A DNA stretch of 64,000 nt, from contig PGXL01000006.1 in assembly GCA_002839095.1 (NCBI GenBank), positions 1-64,000 on the forward strand, written 5' to 3'. Shown piece after piece: positions 12,943-24,284 of the stretch (positions within the stretch are counted from its first letter, which is position 1; each line of letters begins with the position of its first letter). The stretch comes from Tenericutes bacterium HGW-Tenericutes-2 (lineage in GTDB: Bacteria > Bacillota_I > Bacilli_A > Acholeplasmatales > Acholeplasmataceae). The notes below the pieces were generated by a model. That model did no database searches. It saw nothing but the letters and a program-made list of their open reading frames with translations, and was not told where the DNA came from. Position numbers and translations under genes: made by a program.

Positions 12943-14097
12943 TTAAAGTATAAACAATATAACAACAATACTAATTAGATTGGATAAAATATGAACTGCG
13001 ATAGGTACCATAATATTTCTATTATTCTTAATGTAGATATACCCAAAGACAAATCCCATCACGAAATAGCTAATACCATTGACTAATGCTTCAGCTATCG
13101 ATGCTTCACCGACTAAATGGATTAGTCCAAAAACAAATGCAGATACAAATAAGGCTGTTTTATCGGATTTAATTAATCCAAAGATTGCTTTTCTAAAAAT
13201 AAGCTCTTCAACAATTGGTCCTAGAATAACTGCTGATATCATCATTAAGATCATTCCATCGGATCTTAAAGCAGATACGATAACCTCTTGATTGACTGTT
13301 TCACCTGGAGCGAGTCCAAATATACTACTTAGAAAACTAGATAAATAGCCTGATGCGATATTACCAAGCATAATATATAAGTAACCAATGATAACTGCAA
13401 TAAAAAATTGTCCTTTTTGTTCCTTTGATTCCTTAAAATCGTACTCTATATCCATCTTTAATAAATATAAAATGCCTGGAAGAAGTAAAATATAAATAGC
13501 AAAGTTTAATAAAGCAAGTGTAAAAGTCTTTAATTCTGTAACAGGTCCAGTTAGAAGAATTGTTTTTCCTAAAAGCATTTCTGGAGTCTCTTGTGTGCTT
13601 CCCTCATAAATTCTTATTGGTATGCCAGTAGCCCATTGCTTAATTGTAGGAGTTATTGAAAGCATGTTGATTAGAGCAGCTTCTTTAATCTTTATAAGCT
13701 CTGTATCTGGATCGGTAATCAGTAATAAACCCTCATAATAATCATTTTGCTTATTGAGCAAGATGTGAAAGCCTTCATATATTGCAACTGATTTCACTGC
13801 ACCTGCATACTGATCCTTATAAAGCTCAAAGGTCTCATCATCCATAAAGGCTATACCACCAAGGTCTGAAGAGATATTTTCAAATATCAGCTCAGTTTCA
13901 TTATAGGTTACCTTTAAAGCAGGTATTTCACTTGCTGCTAAAAAGAGGACAGAGGCTAAGACGTACATAATTAATATATATACAATTAACGCATATCCAT
14001 AATTCTTTTTGTGCTCGGGGTTTTGTCTAACTTTTCTTTGCTTAATTTCTTCTTTAAATAGATCCTCGAATTTTATGATCTCGTTATTATTATTCAT
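12943..14097 (-). CDS. CPBP-family intramembrane metalloprotease
   Basis: 384 residues. One N-terminal helix (about 36-56), an extracytoplasmic domain (about 57-185), then a multi-helix membrane domain with the CPBP/Rce1 motifs: EELIFRKAIFG (Glu-Glu...Arg, about residue 295), FGLIHL (His about 325) and HILSNL (His about 370). These residues form the metal site of CAAX/bacteriocin-type proteases. The extracytoplasmic insertion is unusual and may sense or bind substrate. First gene of a two-gene minus-strand unit; divergent from rdgB across 107 bases. Confidence 0.85.
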   Translation of the reverse strand: MNNNNEIIKFEDLFKEEIKQRKVRQNPEHKKNYGYALIVYILIMYVLASVLFLAASEIPALKVTYNETELIFENISSDLGGIAFMDDETFELYKDQYAGAVKSVAIYEGFHILLNKQNDYYEGLLLITDPDTELIKIKEAALINMLSITPTIKQWATGIPIRIYEGSTQETPEMLLGKTILLTGPVTELKTFTLALLNFAIYILLLPGILYLLKMDIEYDFKESKEQKGQFFIAVIIGYLYIMLGNIASGYLSSFLSSIFGLAPGETVNQEVIVSALRSDGMILMMISAVILGPIVEELIFRKAIFGLIKSDKTALFVSAFVFGLIHLVGEASIAEALVNGISYFVMGFVFGYIYIKNNRNIMVPIAVHILSNLISIVVILFIL

Positions 14098-14137
14098 GTC
14101 ATCACCTTATTTTATTATAGCGTAAAACATTCAAATA

Positions 14138-14166
14138 TTATACTAGACAAATAAATATGTGATAAT
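14138..14166 (+). promoter_or_regulatory. Promoter of the rdgB operon
   Basis: TTATAC (14138-14143), 17-base spacer, GATAAT (14161-14166) with upstream TGT as extended -10. AGGTG at 14194-14198 is the ribosome site. Confidence 0.6.
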
Positions 14167-14204
14167 ATATATTAATAATAGATATGAGGAAGTAGGTGTT
14201 CTAT

Positions 14205-14795
14205 ATGATCGAAATCCTGATAGCAAGCCAAAATGAGCATAAGATCAAGGAACTCAAAGAAATATTTAACCACACAGAAATTAGACTCATCTCCCTTAAG
14301 GAGTTAAGTGATTTTGAGGATGTAATTGAAGATGGTGAAAGCTTTTTAGATAATGCACTCATTAAAGCAAAATATTTCGCAAATAAACATAAAAGAATGA
14401 CGATATCTGATGATTCAGGATTAGTCGTAGAAGCACTGGACGGACGTCCAGGTATTTATTCAGCTAGATATTCAGGTAAAGGGGATTATGAGAATAATTT
14501 AAAGGTCCTTTGTGAATTAGAAAATGTTGAAAATAGAAGGGCTTACTTCGTTTCTGAGATTGTTTTGTGTTATCCTAATGGTGTATACAAAAGTTTTCGC
14601 GGGGAAGTTCATGGATATATTGCAAACGAGATTAAAGGTGACCATGGTTTTGGCTATGACTCCATCTTTTACATGCCTGAATACCAGATGACCTTTGGGG
14701 AACTGGAATCAGAGATTAAGAATAGAATTTCACATCGAGCAAATGCGTTAAAGCTTTTGAAGGAGAATATCGATGAAATTATTAATTACAAGTGA
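14205..14795 (+). CDS. rdgB: XTP/dITP diphosphatase (RdgB/HAM1 family)
   Basis: 196 residues from ATG 14205; an in-frame GTG at 14196 is part of the ribosome site. The enzyme hydrolyses non-canonical purine nucleoside triphosphates to monophosphates. Family motifs: SQNEHKIKELKEIF near the N-terminus, DDSGLVVEALDGRPGIYSAR, GDHGFGYDSIF and the C-terminal SHRANALK. The 3' end overlaps the next gene by 23 bases, a common rdgB-yfcE pairing. Confidence 0.93.
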   Translation: MIEILIASQNEHKIKELKEIFNHTEIRLISLKELSDFEDVIEDGESFLDNALIKAKYFANKHKRMTISDDSGLVVEALDGRPGIYSARYSGKGDYENNLKVLCELENVENRRAYFVSEIVLCYPNGVYKSFRGEVHGYIANEIKGDHGFGYDSIFYMPEYQMTFGELESEIKNRISHRANALKLLKENIDEIINYK

Positions 14796-15213
14796 TGTTC
14801 ATGGTGATTTTGAGGGCTTAAAGGAAGTCATCAAAAGGCATCCTGATGTTGATTATCATATCAACGCAGGGGATATGTGCATTGACCCAAAAAAATATGA
14901 AAGATTTCATATCATTACCGTTAAAGGAAATAATGATTTTGGAGTGGATCTACCTTGGTTTAGAGTACTAGATTTAGAGGGAATTAGAATTTTATTAACC
15001 CACGGACATATGGAGTTTGTTAAGTTTGGCTTTGATCGCTTAAAGCTAAAAACGAAGCTCAATGAAGCAAGTATTGTAATATTCGGTCATACCCATGAAA
15101 GATATTTAATGGCGGATGACGAAATCATGTTGATAAATCCCGGCGCACTAGGTGACTATCATAGAAGCTACGCCATCTATGAAAACGGACAGGTCACTTT
15201 CTATCAGAGGTAA
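14773..15213 (+). CDS. Metallophosphoesterase, YfcE/MJ0936 family
   Basis: The 146-residue calcineurin-like phosphodiesterase has metal ligands visible in TSDVHGD (residues 6-12), NAGDM, KGNND, LTHGH and FGHTHERY. Family members hydrolyse phosphodiesters with Mn or Ni in vitro; the physiological substrate is not known. It overlaps the end of rdgB and is two bases from the kinase-like gene, so the three form an operon. Confidence 0.9.
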   Translation: MKLLITSDVHGDFEGLKEVIKRHPDVDYHINAGDMCIDPKKYERFHIITVKGNNDFGVDLPWFRVLDLEGIRILLTHGHMEFVKFGFDRLKLKTKLNEASIVIFGHTHERYLMADDEIMLINPGALGDYHRSYAIYENGQVTFYQR

Positions 15214-15215
15214 GT

Positions 15216-16082
15216 ATGGAGCACAGCAAACTGATTCAAGAAAGAGCAGCTAAAGCCTTTCATGTTAATGAAGAGGATGTAAAGGTATTAAATAGAATGC
15301 TAGGTGGAATGAGTCATTTAACCTATCATATCGAAATTAAAGGCATAGAATACACATTTAGAATTATCGGTAAGGATGGCAATCTATTTGTCGATAGAAA
15401 AACAGAATTAAAGAATTTAGAAATTATTAAAGACTTAGGACTCAATAACGAAACCGTTTATTTTGATGTCGAAACTGGAGAAAAGGCTGCGAAGTTCGTA
15501 CCTGGAGTCGTCTTAACTACTGTGGATTTTCATCCACACTTAAAAGATGTTTCTGATACTTTAAAGAAGCTACATCATTCTAATTTAAAGCCAGCTTCAG
15601 ATTACGGCTTAATCGAAAGACTTGATCTTTATGAAACCTATACCAATATTAGAAGTAATAAATATATAGAATTAAAGAATAACTGGATTAAGCTTTACAA
15701 TGAAGAACATAAAAATATGCCTAAGGTATTTTGTCATAACGATGCCCAAAGGTCAAATATGGTGATTGGAAAAAATCAAATCTATTTATTAGACTGGGAA
15801 TATGCAGGATGGAATGAATTTTATTATGATATCGCATCCTTCGGTAATGTGAAGTTTGAAGACGCTTTAGAGCTACTAGATGTCTATTTAGGTAGAAAAG
15901 CGAATCTTGATGAACAAAACTCAGTCAAGTTCTATAGAATGTTTCAGGCACTACAATGGCACCAGGTAGCACTGAGAAAAGAAATGGTTGGATTATCAGA
16001 AGTCCTTCATTTCGATTTTAAAATGCTCGCTGAAAAATATTTGAATTTAGCTGATCGTTTATATAATGAAATTAAAGGATGA
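15216..16082 (+). CDS. Choline kinase/aminoglycoside phosphotransferase-fold protein
   Basis: 288 residues with the APH/choline-kinase fold. The Brenner loop HNDAQRSN (His174-Asn181) supplies the catalytic Asp, and DWEYAG (Asp193 on) is the metal-binding motif as in LicA-type choline kinases. N-terminal GGMSHLTYHIEIKG is the nucleotide loop. Likely phosphorylates a small alcohol or amino alcohol; choline or ethanolamine is an inference from DWEYAG. Third gene of the rdgB operon. Confidence 0.85.
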   Translation: MEHSKLIQERAAKAFHVNEEDVKVLNRMLGGMSHLTYHIEIKGIEYTFRIIGKDGNLFVDRKTELKNLEIIKDLGLNNETVYFDVETGEKAAKFVPGVVLTTVDFHPHLKDVSDTLKKLHHSNLKPASDYGLIERLDLYETYTNIRSNKYIELKNNWIKLYNEEHKNMPKVFCHNDAQRSNMVIGKNQIYLLDWEYAGWNEFYYDIASFGNVKFEDALELLDVYLGRKANLDEQNSVKFYRMFQALQWHQVALRKEMVGLSEVLHFDFKMLAEKYLNLADRLYNEIKG

Positions 16083-16091
16083 TGATTTGAT

Positions 16092-19085
16092 TTGCGTCTA
16101 GGTGATGTCTTAAAGCTTCCTAAACAACCTCATAGTCTATCGATTATTAAAGACTTTTTAGATCAACCGCTGAGTCATACTGACTATCAGGCGGCTTTTA
16201 ACCATTATTTTGAGATTGCCTATGAACTAGAGCTTTATGATTTAATCTTTACCGAAGGAAAAAAGGTTTACCAGGAAATTGAGCTTCAAGCAGAAACACC
16301 CTATCTAGAAAAGATTTTAAAGCATATGATTCATTCTGCCATCAAAATCAATAGACTAGATGAGGCGAAGGCCTATATCGAAATCAGAAAACAAAAGCTT
16401 ACTATTTTAAAGCAGTACCTAGGAGTACTGGATGAAATTGCATATAAAAAAGCGTTAAACCTTCCATACTTTGAAGATTTATTAAGAGTACTAAAGGATG
16501 TCATTCCTGACCAGACAAAGATTTATTGTCATCAGGAGCTCTTTATGCTATATAAAAATGATGGCCAATACGAGATGGCTTTAAATAGCCTTTATCAGCT
16601 ATACAACTTCGACTTAATGAGTGATTATTTTATTGAAGAGCTAAAGCTATTAATTCAATTAGAACGATATGATGAAGTGATTCAAAAGGCCTTGAAGGAT
16701 TTAAAAAAGAATCACGACCATGCTGAGGTTGTTTTATGTCTACTCGAGGTCTATCTAAAAAAACAAGACTTCCATAAGGCATCAACATTAGAGGCTGAAT
16801 ATGAGGAATTAATTGATAAGGCTGATGACTTATTTAAGAAGAGAGCATATGAACTCATTATCAATTTGTATAGTCAAATGGATAATAAGCCTTCTCTTGA
16901 CCTATACCAAAAAAGATATAAAGCACTTCAAAAAAGCTTAGATAAAAAGGGTAAAACAGTTGAAGAGGTTAAGCCAAGTCAAGAAGTTATTTATATCGAA
17001 AAGGTTTCAGAAAAGGGTGTATCGCACACCAATATTTTAAAGCATCTAGATATTTCACATGACCTACTTCAGTTTTCACATTTAATTGATGAGAAGCTAT
17101 TACATAGAGATTATTTTAGAGTATTTTTCATGCATGTCGAAAAGTATATCAAGGTTCATGATTATGTGATTTACCTTGATAAGGAATCACCTAATTTTTT
17201 CCACTACAAAAAGGAAAGACTTTATGATAAAACAATAGTAGAGGGATTATTAGAGGATACTGTTATTAAACAAGTCATGAAAACAGGCGAAGAAATATTT
17301 GAGGACACAAAGAGTATTCGTTGGACAAAGAATATAATCACTCAAAATGATTATGAAAGTGATATCAATTTTGTCTATACCTACCCCCTAGGGGATCTGG
17401 GTGCAATCTCGATTCATTTTGAAGAAGAGATTCTAGATCCTGGAAAGTATTACGATTTATTAAAGCTATTAAGTGCGATTGTTTATGCACATGTTTTAGA
17501 TGAAAAAAAGCTATCCAAATTAAAGAAGGAAAACAGGTTTTACGCAAAGGTTCTAGACGCACCAATTCTTGCGTATAGAGAGCTCAGTGAAGGAAGGTCT
17601 ATCTATAATACTGAGGCACAAAGCCTATTTAATATTGATAAACACCATCATTTAGAATTGTTTTTAAGAGATGTCAGCTATGAGCATGTTCACCTATATA
17701 AGGAGACAGTACAAAGACTTCTCAATAAAAGCGGAGTGACCAAGGAACTCTTATATCGTTATCAAGAAAAAAGCATCCTAGAAAAGCTATATAGTTTAAA
17801 GATAGGGGATGAAGTGATCGTTATGAGTTTATTTAGTGATCAAAGTAAAGCAGTAGAAGAAACCAAGGAATTAATTGAAAAAGCAACCGTAGATCAAGAA
17901 ACAGGGCTAGGGAACTATTATGCACTGACTCAAGAGTTTGAAATGCTTCTTAAGGATAAAGCAAGCATTTTATTAATTGAGCTGGAGCAAAACCTAAAGC
18001 ATATCTATGGTACAGAAAAGATGAGTGCCTATTTTAAGGAATTTGCTCAGCACACGAAAAAATTCTTTAATGATGGAGTAAGCTTCAGATATGATTTTAA
18101 TCAATTAATGATTATACTTCCCTATAATGACATTAGAAGTGTCACGAAGGTTGTAAAGGATTATTTTAGATATCTAGAGGTTTATGAATCTAGAATTTTA
18201 AGATTTGAAAAGTTCAATTGTAATATGGGAATCCTAAGATACCCCGTAGTCACTGTTGAAAAGCATTTAGATAAGCTCGTTAGATATTTAGATATCGCCC
18301 TAGAGAAAGCGAAAAGAGATAAGGAAGACAGATATGTGTTCTTTGTCTATAGAGACTATGAGGATGAGCTTTTTGAGCAGCAGGTTATCGATCACTTAAA
18401 TATCGCGATTGAAGAGAAAAGTATGGGTGTTGTCTTCAATCAAATCACAGATATTAAGAAAAATAGAGTGTGGCAATACGAAAGTGAACTCGCATTATTA
18501 AATCTAGCAATAGATAATAAATATTTACTTCAAATCGCTAAAAAGAGAAATAGATTAGTTGAATTAGAAAGATTTCATATTAAGCGTGTTTGTGAGTATC
18601 TAGTGGAACTAGAAAAACAAACCGAACGCTTGATTAAACTAACGATTCCAATTTCTAAGGAAACCTTTGTCGATCCTACATTTAATCCATTTATTTTGGG
18701 TTTATTTAAGCAATACGCTATTCCTTATGAGTTTATCAGACTTAAATTTGATATGGAGCTACGCGGAAATCAATATGCGCAGCAAATTCAAGAGCTTATC
18801 GATCATGGTATATCCCTAGATACAACCTCATTAGAAATGGCATTACTTTATCCATATCATGCACTACACATCGATTTAAAGAAGGAATCCATTAAATGGA
18901 ATTCCTATATCCATAAAATGAAGGAATTACTTGAAGGCTTCCAAATGGCTTTAGTTGTTAGAAATGTAAAGACTAAGGATCAGAAGGAAGCGTTAGAAAG
19001 ACTTGGTGTGATGTATTTAGAAGGACCTATCTATAAGCAGCTACCCGCACCAACGTTAGTTCAAAAAATTAAGGAGAGCTTATGA
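16092..19085 (+). CDS. Large protein with TPR-like N-terminus and degenerate GGDEF-EAL pair
   Basis: The 997-residue cytosolic protein starts at TTG 16092 with a rather distant AAAGGA, so the start is uncertain. Residues 1-280 look like helical (TPR-like) repeats. A central region (about 330-480) may be GAF-like. From about 600 it aligns with a GGDEF domain in outline (VDQETGLGNYYALTQEF...), but the active-site position reads RYDFNQLMIILP (666-677) where RYGGDEF is expected. From about 770 an EAL-like domain follows (YESELALLNL, final LEGPIYKQLPAP), but the DDFGTG position is DTTSLEM (about 910). Both catalytic centres are therefore missing, and it is probably a nucleotide receptor or a non-enzymatic regulator. 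ATGA overlap with the next gene. Confidence 0.7.
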   Translation: MRLGDVLKLPKQPHSLSIIKDFLDQPLSHTDYQAAFNHYFEIAYELELYDLIFTEGKKVYQEIELQAETPYLEKILKHMIHSAIKINRLDEAKAYIEIRKQKLTILKQYLGVLDEIAYKKALNLPYFEDLLRVLKDVIPDQTKIYCHQELFMLYKNDGQYEMALNSLYQLYNFDLMSDYFIEELKLLIQLERYDEVIQKALKDLKKNHDHAEVVLCLLEVYLKKQDFHKASTLEAEYEELIDKADDLFKKRAYELIINLYSQMDNKPSLDLYQKRYKALQKSLDKKGKTVEEVKPSQEVIYIEKVSEKGVSHTNILKHLDISHDLLQFSHLIDEKLLHRDYFRVFFMHVEKYIKVHDYVIYLDKESPNFFHYKKERLYDKTIVEGLLEDTVIKQVMKTGEEIFEDTKSIRWTKNIITQNDYESDINFVYTYPLGDLGAISIHFEEEILDPGKYYDLLKLLSAIVYAHVLDEKKLSKLKKENRFYAKVLDAPILAYRELSEGRSIYNTEAQSLFNIDKHHHLELFLRDVSYEHVHLYKETVQRLLNKSGVTKELLYRYQEKSILEKLYSLKIGDEVIVMSLFSDQSKAVEETKELIEKATVDQETGLGNYYALTQEFEMLLKDKASILLIELEQNLKHIYGTEKMSAYFKEFAQHTKKFFNDGVSFRYDFNQLMIILPYNDIRSVTKVVKDYFRYLEVYESRILRFEKFNCNMGILRYPVVTVEKHLDKLVRYLDIALEKAKRDKEDRYVFFVYRDYEDELFEQQVIDHLNIAIEEKSMGVVFNQITDIKKNRVWQYESELALLNLAIDNKYLLQIAKKRNRLVELERFHIKRVCEYLVELEKQTERLIKLTIPISKETFVDPTFNPFILGLFKQYAIPYEFIRLKFDMELRGNQYAQQIQELIDHGISLDTTSLEMALLYPYHALHIDLKKESIKWNSYIHKMKELLEGFQMALVVRNVKTKDQKEALERLGVMYLEGPIYKQLPAPTLVQKIKESL

Positions 19086-20149
19086 GTTTAGAAAGCCTGA
19101 AGTCGTTTGTATTCGAATCGAGAAAGGATACACAAAACTCGCACGGCTACCGTGCGCAGTCCTCTTTTTCGATGCTCGAGCACGTCGACTTAATGATTCA
19201 AAGATATGAAGCAGAAAAACAAACTGAAAAAGGTGCGATTCTACTCGATGTCTTTGGAGTCCTTCAGGGCTTATTTGTAGCAATCGATGCCCTATATGAT
19301 TTAGCCATTGGGTTAACTCAATATAAGTATCACGTGAACGTGAACTCCAATTCAACACTACATGAATTAAAATATATTAGAAATGATATTGTAGGTCATC
19401 CTACACATAGAACCTATCCAAATGGTGGAATGGGATTTTCGATTTTATCGACTGAGCATTTATCCAAGGAAAGATTTGCATATCACACCTATCTATTTGA
19501 AAAGAATAAGATGGAGGTTGTAACAAAGGATGTTTATATAAAGCCCTTATTTGATGCCTATAAGGAAGAAAAGGATAACATCTTAGAAGACATTTATAGA
19601 TATCTAACGCATGAGGAAACGAAAACCAATATACCTGAAGACATATTTTCTTTATATGAAACACTGAATTTAAATTTATTAAATGATGTTAAAGAAAAAT
19701 TCATTAAGGAATATGACTTAGATAAGAAATCACCCCATAGATTCTTATGGCGTGCAGGATTACTTGAGATGCTTATCAATTGGGATGAAGAGGATAGTGA
19801 ATTAAAGGAAATGGTATTTTACATGAGCAAATTTCAAGCATCGAAGATGTATGAAATTGCTTTAAATCTGGAAAATAGAACGGGTGCAGATTTATACACA
19901 TCGATTCCTAGAATACTTCAGTCATTTTATAAATTTGTAAGAAAAAATGAGGAAGTAGCACTTCCACTTTTACAGAATTTGCATGATTTCCATCATCCAT
20001 TATTCCATAGTGATTTAGCAGCATTACTCTCATTAAATCCGAGTAAGGATGCAGCAAAACTATTACGATTTTTAAAAAATATTAATGAGGAACCTAAAGC
20101 CTATTTAATTGGTTCTGCATTAAAAAACTATAGACCTAAGAATAAGTAG
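19082..20149 (+). CDS. Unknown protein with HEPN-like RNxxxxH motif
   Basis: 355 residues, mainly helical, no membrane segment. Residues 100-106 read RNDIVGH within a helical context (LHELKYIRNDIVGHPTHR), the spacing of the R-x(4-6)-H ribonuclease motif of HEPN domains. The C-terminal half is a helical array. It is translationally coupled to the degenerate GGDEF-EAL gene, so the two products probably act together. The HEPN reading is a motif-level inference. Confidence 0.5.
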   Translation: MSLESLKSFVFESRKDTQNSHGYRAQSSFSMLEHVDLMIQRYEAEKQTEKGAILLDVFGVLQGLFVAIDALYDLAIGLTQYKYHVNVNSNSTLHELKYIRNDIVGHPTHRTYPNGGMGFSILSTEHLSKERFAYHTYLFEKNKMEVVTKDVYIKPLFDAYKEEKDNILEDIYRYLTHEETKTNIPEDIFSLYETLNLNLLNDVKEKFIKEYDLDKKSPHRFLWRAGLLEMLINWDEEDSELKEMVFYMSKFQASKMYEIALNLENRTGADLYTSIPRILQSFYKFVRKNEEVALPLLQNLHDFHHPLFHSDLAALLSLNPSKDAAKLLRFLKNINEEPKAYLIGSALKNYRPKNK

Positions 20150-20172
20150 ACTAACATTTCATAGGGGGATAT

Positions 20173-20559
20173 ATGAAAAAATACGATTACTGGATAATGA
20201 ATGCAAAGCTCAATATTGTATTTTTTGTTATATATGCTGGCTTTATGACTGTCATAGGTTTAGTATTATCAGATAACAGGTTTGAACTAGAGTTAGGTTT
20301 ATACTTCGCCATGATTATATTATGGACTGTTTCACTCATTAATATTATATGTATTATTGTTATTAAAAAGCGTAAGCAGAAGGATCAATCGATACCACTA
20401 TTTTTTATTATTTTTATTTCAATCACAATGATAAGCATTATGATAGTTTTCATTTTTAGCTTAGATAAACATCATGGAAACATTCCATATCAAAGTGAAT
20501 ATAATGAAAAACCTAGTCATAAAGAAAGTAGTGATCAAATAGAGCTAGAAACAAACTAA
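20173..20559 (+). CDS. Small membrane protein
   Basis: 128 residues with three hydrophobic helices (about 14-32, 42-66 and 76-100) and a hydrophilic acidic C-terminal tail. GGGGGAT precedes the ATG. No family recognised. Confidence 0.6.
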   Translation: MKKYDYWIMNAKLNIVFFVIYAGFMTVIGLVLSDNRFELELGLYFAMIILWTVSLINIICIIVIKKRKQKDQSIPLFFIIFISITMISIMIVFIFSLDKHHGNIPYQSEYNEKPSHKESSDQIELETN

Positions 20560-20616
20560 TCCATACGATTTAATGAATTAATTGATTATCCAAAAAGTAA
20601 ATATTAAATAAAATTG

Positions 20617-20625
20617 TGATATAAT
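20617..20625 (+). promoter_or_regulatory. Extended -10 promoter for the 65-residue gene
   Basis: TGA-TATAAT (TATAAT at 20620-20625); no good -35. The start codon lies 22 bases downstream behind GAGGTGA. Confidence 0.55.
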
Positions 20626-20646
20626 ACTCTAGTGAGGTGAATCCAT

Positions 20647-20844
20647 ATGGCTTGGAGCAATGAAACTTATCTAATTGGTGAAAAAGTAAAGGTTGAAGGA
20701 GAAAAAGGTTTTGGTGTAATTACTAGAATCGACACAGTACGTGGTTTGATCTATGTTCTCTATAAGAGAATGAGAGAAGAAGCGTATCCTTATCCTGAAG
20801 CAATCGATCAAGGAAAACTTAAACCAGAGGTTACTAAAAGATAA
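20647..20844 (+). CDS. Small basic SH3/Tudor-like protein of unknown function
   Basis: 65 residues, charged, with alternating beta-type segments (GEKVKVEGEKGFGVITRI-DTVRGLIYVLYKR). Its own promoter, ribosome site and terminator argue that it is a real gene. The barrel-like pattern is only suggestive. Confidence 0.65.
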   Translation: MAWSNETYLIGEKVKVEGEKGFGVITRIDTVRGLIYVLYKRMREEAYPYPEAIDQGKLKPEVTKR

Positions 20845-20869
20845 ACACGTTTTGTGTTTGTCTTTTTTT
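20839..20869 (+). terminator. Terminator after the 65-residue gene
   Basis: A 10-bp stem AGATAAACAC/GTGTTTGTCT (one G-U) overlaps the stop codon and is followed by seven T. Confidence 0.85.
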
Positions 20870-20877
20870 AAACTGAT

Positions 20878-21237
20878 ATGAAAAAATTTATTCTATTTTG
20901 GAAGCTTTTTTTCTTGATGGTTTGGGAGATTATGAAGTCGATGCAAAGCATTAGAGGTTTACTTTCTCTTTTGATTAGCTATATGATTTTTCATGGATGG
21001 GCACTTGTATTTTTTGTAATAGGGGTTATGAGTGGAAATGGATGGTTAATTGGTGTAGGAAGTGCAGTGATACTATTTTGGTTTGGTCCTGGAACACCTG
21101 TCATTCCGCTTGTTTTAATTACAGCTTTATTTATTCAAAGATATATTTTTATGGATAAGAAAAATAAAATAAGGCTCAAGGATAAATGGATTGAGCTGAA
21201 AAATAAAAATTATTTTAAAGATGAAAATCAGTCCTAA
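20878..21237 (+). CDS. Small membrane protein
   Basis: 119 residues with hydrophobic helices (about 5-20, 28-52 and 55-83) and a basic tail. It starts only nine bases after the previous T-tract with no clear Shine-Dalgarno, so expression would depend on readthrough or on weak initiation. Possible COG4420-like or 'YdbL'-type resemblance could not be supported. Function unknown. Confidence 0.5.
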   Translation: MKKFILFWKLFFLMVWEIMKSMQSIRGLLSLLISYMIFHGWALVFFVIGVMSGNGWLIGVGSAVILFWFGPGTPVIPLVLITALFIQRYIFMDKKNKIRLKDKWIELKNKNYFKDENQS

Positions 21238-21252
21238 AATAGGACTTTTTTT
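21230..21252 (+). terminator. Terminator
   Basis: A 6-bp stem AGTCCT/AGGACT with AAAAT loop is followed by seven T, overlapping the last codons of the small membrane protein. Confidence 0.85.
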
Positions 21253-21335
21253 CTATAATTTAATAAATTATATAAATGACATCTAAAACATGTTAAAATA
21301 ATATAAATGAGACTTATAATTCTAGGAGGATTTTT

Positions 21336-22337
21336 ATGCTATACGAACCATATCAAATTAAAGGATTTACATTAAAAAATAGAGTGGTGATGCCACCAAT
21401 GTGTATGTATAGTGCAAACACATTAGGCTTTGCTAATGATTTCCATATTGTTCATTATGGAACTAGAGCTATCGGTGGGGTTGGCTTAATCATTCAAGAA
21501 GCGACTGCAACTTTACCTGATGGTAGAATAAGCATTAACGATTTAGGTATTTGGAGTGATGATCATATTGCAGGACTTAAAAAGATCGTGAATGTCATCC
21601 ACCAAAATGGTGCCGTAGCTGGTATACAAATCAATCATGCAGGAAGAAAGGCTAAGGTCGATAGACCAATAGCTCCAAGTGCGAAAAGCTATTCTGATGA
21701 CTATCAAGTACCTGCTGAAATGACTATAGAAGAGATTAAAGAAGTTATTTTATCCTTTAAGGAAGCAGCAAGACGTGCAGATGAAGCAGGCTATGACTTA
21801 TTAGAAATCCATGGTGCCCATGGATATTTGATCTTTCAATTTATATCACCAATTTCAAATTTAAGAACTGATGAGTATAAAGATGGTAAAAAGTTTTTAA
21901 GAGAAGTTGTTGAAGCTATTATGGAAGTTTGGCCAAAGGAAAAGGTGCTTGCATTAAGAGTTTCTGGAACTGAATATGTTGAAGGTGGAGTTACACCTGA
22001 AACCATTAGTGAAGCGATTAATAGTGTTAAGGATTTAGGAATTGATATTATTGATGTCAGTAGCGGGGGTAATGTTTTAGTTAAGATTAATGCATTTCCT
22101 GGGTATCAGCTAGACTTAGCAAAGAAGATTCATGATTTGACTGGATTACCTGTCATGGGTGGTGGGTTGATTACGGATATGAGACTTGCTGATCATGCAG
22201 TATCATCTAATCGATGTGATTTAGTTTATTTAGGAAGATTGTTACTAAGAGATCCTTATGTAGTGATTAACTCAGCAGCTGAAATGGGAGTAAACATCCC
22301 TTATCCTAACCAATATATAAGAGGTAAAAAAGCATAA
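21336..22337 (+). CDS. namA: NAD(P)H-flavin oxidoreductase of the old yellow enzyme family (YqjM/NamA type)
   Basis: 333-residue FMN TIM-barrel enzyme that reduces activated C=C bonds with NADPH. The N-terminal PPMCMYSA carries the Cys typical of YqjM-class enzymes (about residue 24), and INHAGRKAKV supplies the active-site His. EIHGAHGYLIFQFISP and a phosphate-binding region near the C-terminus (LVYLGRLLLRDP) also fit. AGGAGGA precedes the start; TGT-TAAAAT at 21294-21299 is a candidate -10. Physiological substrate unknown. Confidence 0.92.
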   Translation: MLYEPYQIKGFTLKNRVVMPPMCMYSANTLGFANDFHIVHYGTRAIGGVGLIIQEATATLPDGRISINDLGIWSDDHIAGLKKIVNVIHQNGAVAGIQINHAGRKAKVDRPIAPSAKSYSDDYQVPAEMTIEEIKEVILSFKEAARRADEAGYDLLEIHGAHGYLIFQFISPISNLRTDEYKDGKKFLREVVEAIMEVWPKEKVLALRVSGTEYVEGGVTPETISEAINSVKDLGIDIIDVSSGGNVLVKINAFPGYQLDLAKKIHDLTGLPVMGGGLITDMRLADHAVSSNRCDLVYLGRLLLRDPYVVINSAAEMGVNIPYPNQYIRGKKA

Positions 22338-22777: not shown

Positions 22778-22810
22778 AAAAGAAACTGGATTATTCGTCC
22801 AGTTTCTTTT
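22778..22810. terminator. Bidirectional terminator shared by convergent genes
   Basis: A perfect 13-bp stem AAAAGAAACTGGA/TCCAGTTTCTTTT with 7-base loop. A-rich and T-rich flanks serve both strands. The right arm also encodes the last residues of the minus-strand gene. Confidence 0.88.
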
Positions 22811-23834
22811 CTTTTAGGTAAGCTTTGTATGAGGTTGGTTCTAAATAAAAATGCTCTTCAATGTCTCCATTAATCTTGAAAAATTTGGGTTCATCAGAAT
22901 TCATATAATAAACACGATAAATCCAGTAGTTATTTTTCTTATTTCTAGATGTTTCTATTTCATTTGCAGATATATCAAATGACTGTGATTTTCCTAATAT
23001 AGTAGCTTTAACTTCAATATATTTTTCTTTTCCATCAAGTGAATACGATAAGACATCATATCCAAAACCATCGGCTTCATTAGCAACCCATTTAACTCGA
23101 TTTGCTAAATCTTCCTTGTTATGTTTAATTAAATATTCTTTTTCATATGCTACAACTAATTCTTCAGCTAATACACCTGTTTTCGCATCCTTTTTAGCTT
23201 TTTCGATAAAATCGATTTTTCTACCATGAATGACTTGTTTTTTCACTCTAGGTTTATTTGAACCATTTGGTCTCTCTGTCTCTGCTAAGATGACTTGACC
23301 TTCTTCAATTCCTTGTTCTTCATAAAGTTGTCTGATTATATCAGAGGTTTCTTCATCTATGGTAAATACAGTTTCTAAATCATCAGCTTCATAAACATCT
23401 AAGATATATTCATCAAGCTTTCTACCTAAATCTTTTGATATTGGAAATAAATAACCTTGATTTCCACCACCGGTAACTTTATTAAAAGGTGAATATGTAT
23501 CGGGTAGAAGATCTCGTATTTCATCGATGTGCTCAGAAATTTTAATTTTTTCAATTGAAAAATCATAATCCAAATATACTAACCAACCATCTCTGCTCCA
23601 CAGTTCATTATTAAATGGATTGCTGTGATCGATAGCTTCACTTTTTGCAATGGAACGAGCAACAATGTAATTGCTAATAATACTAAAAACAACATCACCT
23701 TTTCTTATTTTGGTCATTGACTCCCAATGGAATTGGGTAAATCTTCCATTTATATCTTTTTTTGGTGCCCAAAGAATTCCAGATTGATGCTCTTCCTTAA
23801 ATGTTTTGTTTTGAAAAACTACAAAGTATTTCAT
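22791..23834 (-). CDS. EVE-like/DUF3883 protein, putative modification-dependent nuclease
   Basis: 347 residues. The N-terminal ~150 residues (MKYFVVFQNKTF...GILWAPKK...KGDVVFSI...IVARSIAKS) resemble an EVE/PUA-like domain, the fold that reads modified bases. The C-terminal ~150 residues match DUF3883: AEELVVAYEKEYL, GFGYDVLSYSL and KYIEVKAT supply the E...D...ExK pattern of a PD-(D/E)xK nuclease. Such fusions are found in restriction systems that cut modified DNA. It lies three bases downstream of the Nudix gene in one transcript. Confidence 0.75.
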   Translation of the reverse strand: MKYFVVFQNKTFKEEHQSGILWAPKKDINGRFTQFHWESMTKIRKGDVVFSIISNYIVARSIAKSEAIDHSNPFNNELWSRDGWLVYLDYDFSIEKIKISEHIDEIRDLLPDTYSPFNKVTGGGNQGYLFPISKDLGRKLDEYILDVYEADDLETVFTIDEETSDIIRQLYEEQGIEEGQVILAETERPNGSNKPRVKKQVIHGRKIDFIEKAKKDAKTGVLAEELVVAYEKEYLIKHNKEDLANRVKWVANEADGFGYDVLSYSLDGKEKYIEVKATILGKSQSFDISANEIETSRNKKNNYWIYRVYYMNSDEPKFFKINGDIEEHFYLEPTSYKAYLKEKKLDE

Positions 23835-23837
23835 TTA

Positions 23838-24239
23838 TTATTCCCCCATTAGTTTTTTAACTATCGGTAGATCAGCTTCAGCCCAGTCAAGAGTTAAAAG
23901 ATTATTAATTTGAACCCATCTAGCTTCATCATGATCGTTGAGTACATAGAAATCAAGAGACCCTTCACAGATGTAAGAATGTAATGTGATTGCAAAATTT
24001 TTATATTCATAGTTTACAGTATGGAAGTGAGATAAAACAGTGATTTCTAATTCCAATTCTTCTAGCATTTCTCTCTTAAGTGCTTCTTGAGGTGATTCAC
24101 CTAATTCAATTTTACCCCCAGGAAATTCCCACTTAAGAGCTAATTCACCAATATTTTTTCTTTTTGTACAGAAAACATAGTTTTGATCATTCAAGATAAT
24201 AGCAGCAACTACTTCAATATGTTTTTTTATAAATATCAC
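23838..24239 (-). CDS. MutT-like Nudix hydrolase
   Basis: 133 residues from GTG 24239, preceded by AAAGG. A longer in-frame TTG at 24284 is rejected because it coincides with the -35 element. The complete Nudix box GGKIELGESPQEALKREMLEELELEI spans about residues 41-66 and WEFPGG precedes it, as in MutT. It probably hydrolyses an oxidised or otherwise altered nucleoside triphosphate. First gene of the unit with the EVE-DUF3883 gene; modified nucleotides are a common theme of both proteins. Confidence 0.85.
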   Translation of the reverse strand: MIFIKKHIEVVAAIILNDQNYVFCTKRKNIGELALKWEFPGGKIELGESPQEALKREMLEELELEITVLSHFHTVNYEYKNFAITLHSYICEGSLDFYVLNDHDEARWVQINNLLTLDWAEADLPIVKKLMGE

Positions 24240-24254
24240 CGAACCTTTATATAC

Positions 24255-24284
24255 ATTGTAACACTTAATTAGCGGATATCTCAA
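24255..24284 (-). promoter_or_regulatory. Promoter of the Nudix/DUF3883 operon
   Basis: On the minus strand TTGAGA (24284-24279), 18-base spacer and TACAAT (24260-24255) with TGT before it. Transcription would begin just upstream of GTG 24239. Confidence 0.65.

Follow-up and report, generated by a model that had tools for sequence, protein, structure and literature searches.

A degenerate GGDEF-EAL protein and its overlapping HEPN-like partner, a candidate RNA-control switch in Acholeplasmatales and a second order

Introduction

In Escherichia coli, CsrD is a GGDEF-EAL protein without catalytic residues that controls the RNase E-dependent decay of the small RNAs CsrB/C, and its own molecular mechanism is still to be determined (PMC5027483). 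Here we describe a gene pair of Tenericutes bacterium HGW-Tenericutes-2, a member of the Acholeplasmatales with a draft genome of 2.30 Mb, located in the first 64,000 nucleotides of contig PGXL01000006.1 (forward strand; this whole stretch is called the window below). The pair consists of P1, a degenerate GGDEF-EAL protein, and P2, an HEPN-like protein encoded by the overlapping gene. CsrD shares with P1 the loss of the catalytic residues of the GGDEF-EAL body; rather than acting as an enzyme of cyclic di-GMP (c-di-GMP), CsrD controls RNA decay via a separate ribonuclease (RNase) (PMC5027483). Unlike CsrD, which is a predicted membrane protein, P1 contains no strongly hydrophobic stretch and carries TPR, GAF-like and PAS-like parts; moreover, the putative RNase is here the HEPN-like product of the overlapping gene instead of RNase E, the proposed likeness being one of function.

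DosP, PA0861 and FimX share the GGDEF-EAL scaffold with P1, which differs from them by lacking the residues of diguanylate cyclases or phosphodiesterases and most c-di-GMP-binding residues; FimX is a c-di-GMP receptor, and LapD is a further GGDEF-EAL protein for comparison. On the side of P2, HepT of the HEPN-MNT modules likewise presents an R-x4-6-H motif with asparagine after the arginine, and a helical core. However, P2 has R-x5-H and not the R-x4-H-x-Y of HepT, its model shows a beta-rich insert (residues 117-152) and a C-terminal half of about 175 amino acids (aa), it has no MNT (nucleotidyltransferase) partner, and the profile comparison with HepT was negative. Panoptes (PMC12657218) and other cyclic-nucleotide defence systems also place a nucleotide-cyclase-related protein beside an effector gene, whereas P1 is devoid of cyclase residues and its locus of a defence context. 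Among the papers listed in the literature searches, none describes a pair of this type (degenerate GGDEF-EAL plus HEPN) in its title or the opening of its abstract.

We give an even chance to the reading that P1 and P2 form a vertically inherited RNA-control switch, in which a pseudoenzyme sensor or scaffold would control an HEPN-type RNase. This reading builds on the degeneration of P1 under strong constraint, the overlapping genes in two orders, the near-complete co-occurrence of P2 with P1, and the invariant motif and predicted topology of P2.

Results

The coordinates of both open reading frames (ORFs), their lengths and their ATGA coupling agreed with the original prediction, and the features of the pair are listed below.

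16092..19085, + strand: P1, 997 aa, TTG start, with TPR, GAF-like, PAS-like, degenerate GGDEF and degenerate EAL parts
16533..16922, + strand: P1 TPR region, residues ~148-277 (profile matches to consensus or designed TPR structures in the PDB; Pfam TPR models in a few of 49 members)
17025..17537, + strand: P1 GAF-like region, residues 312-482 (conserved K373-x2-R376-x-Y378-x-K/R380; weak GAF assignment)
17529..17879, + strand: P1 PAS-like region, residues 480-596 (Pfam PAS_3 in 2/49 members, best 7.9e-4; weak assignment)
17883..18329, + strand: P1 degenerate GGDEF, residues 598-746 (PF00990, 28.9 bits, cut-off 23.8; RYDFN in place of GGDEF)
18396..19034, + strand: P1 degenerate EAL, residues 769-981 (PF00563, 41.0 bits, cut-off 31.3; aligned to DosP)
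19082..20149, + strand: P2, 355 aa, ATG start, HEPN-like
19139..19609, + strand: P2 predicted HEPN-like core, residues 20-176 (AlphaFold2 model, VIA-align)
19379..19402, + strand: P2 invariant motif R100-N-D-I-V-G-H106-P107, candidate RNase active site (ortholog alignments)

P1 belongs to the GGDEF-EAL superfamily, both domains exceeding their Pfam cut-offs, and the replacement of both catalytic motifs that had been claimed was confirmed: RYDFNQL (residues 666-672) occupies the GGDEF position and DTTSLEM (910-916) that of DDFGTG. The GGDEF motif of an active diguanylate cyclase is lost in 78/78 aligned P1 orthologues. The catalytic and metal-binding set of an active EAL phosphodiesterase comprises E(A)L, N, ExxE, DD, K, E and Q, and its motifs are replaced in the window P1 and in all 54 displayed rows of the same 78 (the other 24, all from family f1, lie outside the EAL motif display). 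With the register taken from the DosP alignment, the changes in the window P1 are N to P, DD to DT, K to H, EgVE to RNVK and QG to EG, while most f1 sequences retain the leading E of EAL (as YES), which is gone in most displayed rows of families f2 and f4. In the only P1 scanned from the second order (locus L194, family f19), Pfam recognised neither EAL nor GGDEF.

These catalytically altered domains are under strong constraint. Against three close relatives, the ratio of nonsynonymous to synonymous substitution (dN/dS) was 0.020-0.047 for GGDEF and 0.024-0.030 for EAL, compared with 0.047-0.068 for the TPR and 0.053-0.134 for the GAF-like part, all values being approximate as synonymous sites are near saturation; mean pairwise identity, taken over every second alignment row, was also highest at GGDEF and EAL (0.33 and 0.34 vs 0.26-0.29 elsewhere). 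Furthermore, D680 and R682 (NDxR), just behind the former GGDEF hairpin, are invariant in 78/78 P1 and kept only partly in f19. Judged from its sequence, P1 is a pseudoenzyme and not a decaying enzyme. A plausible model of its active ancestral form is a 738-aa GAF-PAS-SGDEF-EAL-like relative from another family of the same class (f12; L196 6331-8547), which has a C-terminal layout like that of P1, keeps the SGDEF, DDFGMG, EGVE and QGY motifs and is the best P1 match outside the two P2-bearing orders (E 2.6e-67, positions 315-997).

In a PDB profile search, the best matches of P1 over residues ~592-993 were DosP, PA0861 and FimX, and across 49 members (E <= 0.1) Pfam detected EAL in 45/49 and GGDEF in 23/49. 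The predicted TPR-like N-terminus was recovered as well, at the residues listed above. For the GAF-like region, Pfam GAF appeared in 1/25 members (0.0045) and GAF_2 in 2/25, and PDB profile searches with the GAF-like and PAS-like regions gave nothing convincing; K373, R376, Y378 and K380 are nevertheless conserved in >=90% of 49 P1 members, and the first three are also present in 6/6 f19 sequences. A ligand or phosphate site of P1 would most plausibly lie at this K373-x2-R376-x-Y378 set and not in the GGDEF-EAL body. Nucleotide sensing, as originally proposed, is unlikely in the form of c-di-GMP sensing by GGDEF/EAL, because most EAL binding residues are also lost. Two further descriptions did not hold: with 997 aa, P1 is in our view not giant for this domain class, and the supposed scarcity of c-di-GMP signalling in the lineage is contradicted by 28 GGDEF and 8 EAL places in the genome and by 14 GGDEF and/or EAL proteins reported for Acholeplasma laidlawii (PMC2408644). 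The GGDEF places (E <= 0.001) do not include P1, and of the EAL places P1 gives the weakest match.

Regarding P2, RND[ILV][VI]GHP occurs in 85/85 aligned proteins, 79/79 from the order (down to ~25% identity) and 6/6 from the second order. Sixteen positions are invariant in 64 aligned members, with identity as low as 25% (Q62, F65, V66, D69, Y72, N88, N90, R100, N101, D102, G105, H106, P107, R110, Y134 and R220), and f19 keeps all of them except V66, one truncated f19 member being without R220. A bare R-x4-6-H pattern in one sequence is no evidence, since 578/1202 ORFs of >=100 aa in the fetched loci carry it (P2 copies included), and it is the conservation that exceeds chance. HEPN RNases are described as having an arginine followed by a polar N, D or H, a motif at the end of helix 3 and an acidic residue in helix 2 (PMC3710099). 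In P2, the polar N101 follows R100 within the R-x4-6-H motif, the invariant D69 lies in predicted helix 50-79 and the motif closes predicted helix 91-103.

The N-terminal 182 residues of P2 were modelled alone because the full-length prediction was poor. The AlphaFold2 model of residues 1-182 had a predicted local distance difference test (pLDDT) value of 73.2 and a predicted template modelling score of 0.69, with low confidence at 105-109; its helices are 20-44, 50-79, 91-103 and 153-176, and the beta-rich insert separates helix 3 from helix 4. The full-length model shows, at low confidence, a C-terminal half that is long and helical. When VIA-align was run over the 1000 best Foldseek chains, ranks 1 and 2 were the Legionella HEPN toxins 8yuf (Z 7.8, 114 aligned residues, root-mean-square deviation (rmsd) 3.6) and 8xdj (Z 7.7, 110 aligned, rmsd 3.5), matched over P2 residues 18-177, and the next row, unrelated, had Z 6.3. 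The proposal of an HEPN-like P2 with RNDIVGH at residues 100-106 is upheld by the invariant motif, the predicted helix topology and this fold rank, and failed to gain confirmation from sequence profiles or significance in plain Foldseek. On its model and sequence, P2 is probably an HEPN-like RNase, and would add a candidate HEPN family named by none of the searched libraries. A match of P2 to DUF2278 (0.0084, under the cut-off, 3/64 members) was dismissed as chance; sequence and profile searches of the PDB with P2 returned nothing, or designed or unrelated helical proteins only, and plain Foldseek of the P2 model against BFVD returned nothing significant.

Family profiles detected P1 in 120 and P2 in 106 of 160 genomes of the order. 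By hand comparison of the two lists, 100 genomes carry both genes, 20 P1 only, 6 P2 only and 34 neither. P1 accordingly accompanies P2 in 100/106 genomes, and both genes are old, chromosomal and mostly single-copy, the unit having persisted over a large share of the evolution of the wall-less Acholeplasma-type bacteria. Five of the 20 P1-only genomes are >=90% complete and <=5% contaminated (G088, G101, G109, G110 and G147); either P1 has a role without P2, or P2 goes first during reduction. Most genomes with neither gene belong to genus g11, presumably the phytoplasmas, whose genomes are small (0.3-0.9 Mb among the rows listed). Beyond the order, a search of 395 genomes detected P2 in six f19 genomes of the same class, and f19 is called a second order here as it is listed under the same class and not the same order; G459 gave a marginal partial match (E 9.6e-4). 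A phylum-wide draw of 372 genomes contained no further family, IMG/VR viral contigs no relative, and plasmids and phages, searched with P2 only, no P2 relative. The cultured species A. laidlawii very probably carries both genes.

P2 lies directly behind P1 in families f1, f3, f4 and f19, with 45 adjacent loci (46 rows, less the second row of L203, a separate GGDEF-EAL gene). The spacing is between -40 and +3 nt in 44/45 and exactly -4 in 21; the remaining adjacent locus, L198 (6561-10752; G148, f4, a 1.9-Mb single-contig genome), has broken copies of both genes. Each of the two is divided among several reading frames there, which may be pseudogene-like or due to assembly frame errors. All six f19 P2 loci are directly behind P1; in a further f19 locus (L195), P1 is at its usual place and P2 was not detected there.

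The window P1 and P2 genes follow three genes on the same strand:

14196..14795, + strand: rdgB/HAM1, non-canonical purine nucleoside triphosphate pyrophosphatase (PF01725, 6.1e-62; TIGR00042, 194.7 bits, cut-off 145.35), which opens the conserved cluster
14773..15213, + strand: YfcE-type phosphodiesterase (PF12850, 1.6e-25; TIGR00040, 71.5 bits, cut-off 56.25)
15216..16082, + strand: choline/thiamine-kinase-like phosphotransferase (PF01633, 7.2e-16), a neighbour conserved in families f1 and f4

Among loci with enough flank, 56/60 have rdgB no more than four genes upstream of P1 (f1 26/30, f2 18/18, f3 1/1, f4 10/10, f5 1/1). In f2, P1 remains with rdgB, and typA/BipA is downstream of P2 in 14/21 loci (L135, which has P2 by phmmer, is left out of this neighbour table). 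In f19, dtd and relA are directly upstream of P1 in 6/7 loci, the seventh contig beginning inside P1. The order in L194 is apt-relA-dtd-P1-P2-unknown-nusB-xseA, where NCBIfam backs apt, relA, dtd and xseA and nusB was read from the translation. A gene of ~280-380 aa follows P2 in the second-order loci L194 (8703-9851), L190, L191 and L193; neither NCBIfam nor Pfam matched the L194 copy.

No MNT nucleotidyltransferase adjoins P2, which in the window is flanked by P1 and by a 128-aa ORF of no clear family, and PADLOC gave no match for P1, P2 or the upstream kinase-like gene. Ordinary HEPN toxins exist alongside P2 in the genome, at two separate HepT-like (PF01934) places on contigs C31 and C44. 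About 2.6 kb downstream of the pair, a 347-aa ORF (22791..23834, - strand) matches PADLOC PDC-S36 (7.5e-43) and PD-T4-1 (6e-22) and is a possible defence gene; it is adjoined by a MutT/NUDIX-looking ORF at 23838-24284. The promoter scan at the locus was at chance level (36 observed vs 37.5 expected). Terminator-like sites in window positions 13900-21400 numbered 13, compared with 2.6 (standard deviation 1.6) in shuffles, and a palindrome at 21230-21246, near the end of a 119-aa ORF, scores on both strands.

Discussion

Under the reading that we favor, P1 would descend from an active GAF-PAS-GGDEF-EAL c-di-GMP enzyme that gained TPRs and lost its catalytic residues. P2 would be an HEPN-type endoribonuclease whose four-helix core carries D69 on its second helix and R100-N-D-I/V-V-G-H106 where the third helix ends, with an entirely helical C-terminal half behind this core. 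P2, its RNA substrate or both would be held by the TPR and pseudo GGDEF-EAL body of P1. Under nutritional or translational stress, P2 would be turned on or off by a ligand or partner, which may bind at the GAF-like K-x2-R-x-Y-x-K site, P1 gating P2 much as CsrD couples the state of sugar transport to RNase E (PMC5027483). In this scheme we infer the RNase activity, the physical interaction, the ligand, the direction of control and the link to stress. The rdgB, relA, dtd and typA neighbours point, by guilt by association, to nucleotide and translation stress rather than to phage infection. The pairing of a regulator with an RNase, as first suggested, agrees with overlapping genes retained in two orders.

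Several results weigh against such a switch. The 20 P1-only and 6 P2-only genomes indicate that neither gene strictly needs the other, and every f2 genome that carries both has them on separate contigs. The pLDDT of the full-length P2 model is poor (46), plain Foldseek with the P2 model against the PDB gave nothing significant (HEPN is absent from the 50 rows listed), and a VIA-align Z below 8 for a helical bundle may reflect a common arrangement. The P2 sequence matches no HEPN family in Pfam, NCBIfam and PHROG searches, and hhalign of its N-terminal half against HepT gave a probability of 0.12%, no better than unrelated decoys (alignment of 19 proteins; 23 were picked and L211, L230, L232 and L238 dropped). 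Such a negative profile comparison weighs little, because HEPN families are described as poorly conserved outside the motif (PMC3710099). Finally, an HEPN motif does not guarantee the mechanism, since in a Legionella HEPN protein R98A and H103A had a negligible effect on RNase activity (PMC11586414).

Among the alternatives, the one that survives best, although unlikely, is that P2 is a non-nuclease of the HEPN fold which binds RNA or nucleotides, and that P1 serves as its scaffold in RNA processing or in regulation related to the ribosome. The fold and motif would support it as they support the switch, typA, relA and dtd being translation or stringent-response neighbours and the long helical C-terminal half (in a low-confidence model) adding to its appeal; against this, the R, N and H linked to catalysis (PMC3710099) are exactly the invariant ones of P2, with D69 upstream.

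We regard as improbable that P1 is still a c-di-GMP receptor of the LapD or FimX type, its degenerate EAL binding without hydrolysis and signalling to P2. The 28 GGDEF and 8 EAL places of the genome, the presence of FimX among the P1 profile matches and the first EAL glutamate retained in most f1 sequences are in its favor; however, the other EAL motif positions are altered in the window P1, the retained glutamate is also lost in most displayed f2 and f4 rows, and the P1 of L194 has no Pfam-recognisable EAL or GGDEF.

More doubtful still is a defence or toxin-antitoxin module, with P2 as toxin and P1 as a large antitoxin or infection sensor. HEPN RNases are frequent toxins and conflict effectors (PMC3710099), the genes overlap and P2-only genomes are rare (6/106). 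Nevertheless, the absence of PADLOC matches, of relatives in viral contigs and of P2 relatives in plasmids and phages, the stable locus with housekeeping genes (rdgB upstream in 56/60 loci), the mostly single copy under purifying selection, the large regulator gene in first position, unlike HepT/MntA, and the two HepT-like places elsewhere in the genome all speak against it, and the defence device of the original prediction found no positive support. P1-P2 looks like built-in RNA control rather than phage defence. Least credible is that P2 is not an HEPN domain but adopts a new all-alpha fold, its conserved RNDIVGHP having nothing to do with the HEPN motif, since, for all the nil sequence and profile support for HEPN, the moderate model confidence and the non-significant plain Foldseek result, the two top VIA-align rows are HEPN toxins over P2 18-177 and the best short hhalign overlap sets RN-IV of P2 in register with the HepT motif.

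Conclusion

Beyond the vertically inherited switch as such, we put forward, tentatively and as a possibility rather than an expectation, an ancestral RNA-decay switch of two orders belonging to one class, in which a former c-di-GMP enzyme would serve as a GAF-ligand sensor directly gating a dedicated HEPN endoribonuclease and, in one order, would be wired into a stringent-response operon (apt-relA-dtd-P1-P2-nusB). The P1-P2 idea is testable in a cultured species. If true, a c-di-GMP enzyme would have been wholly repurposed as a pseudoenzyme that regulates a dedicated RNase, and would have persisted in two bacterial orders; the ancestral switch would mean that the CsrD principle evolved independently a second time, with an RNase of its own, in bacteria stripped of much other regulation.

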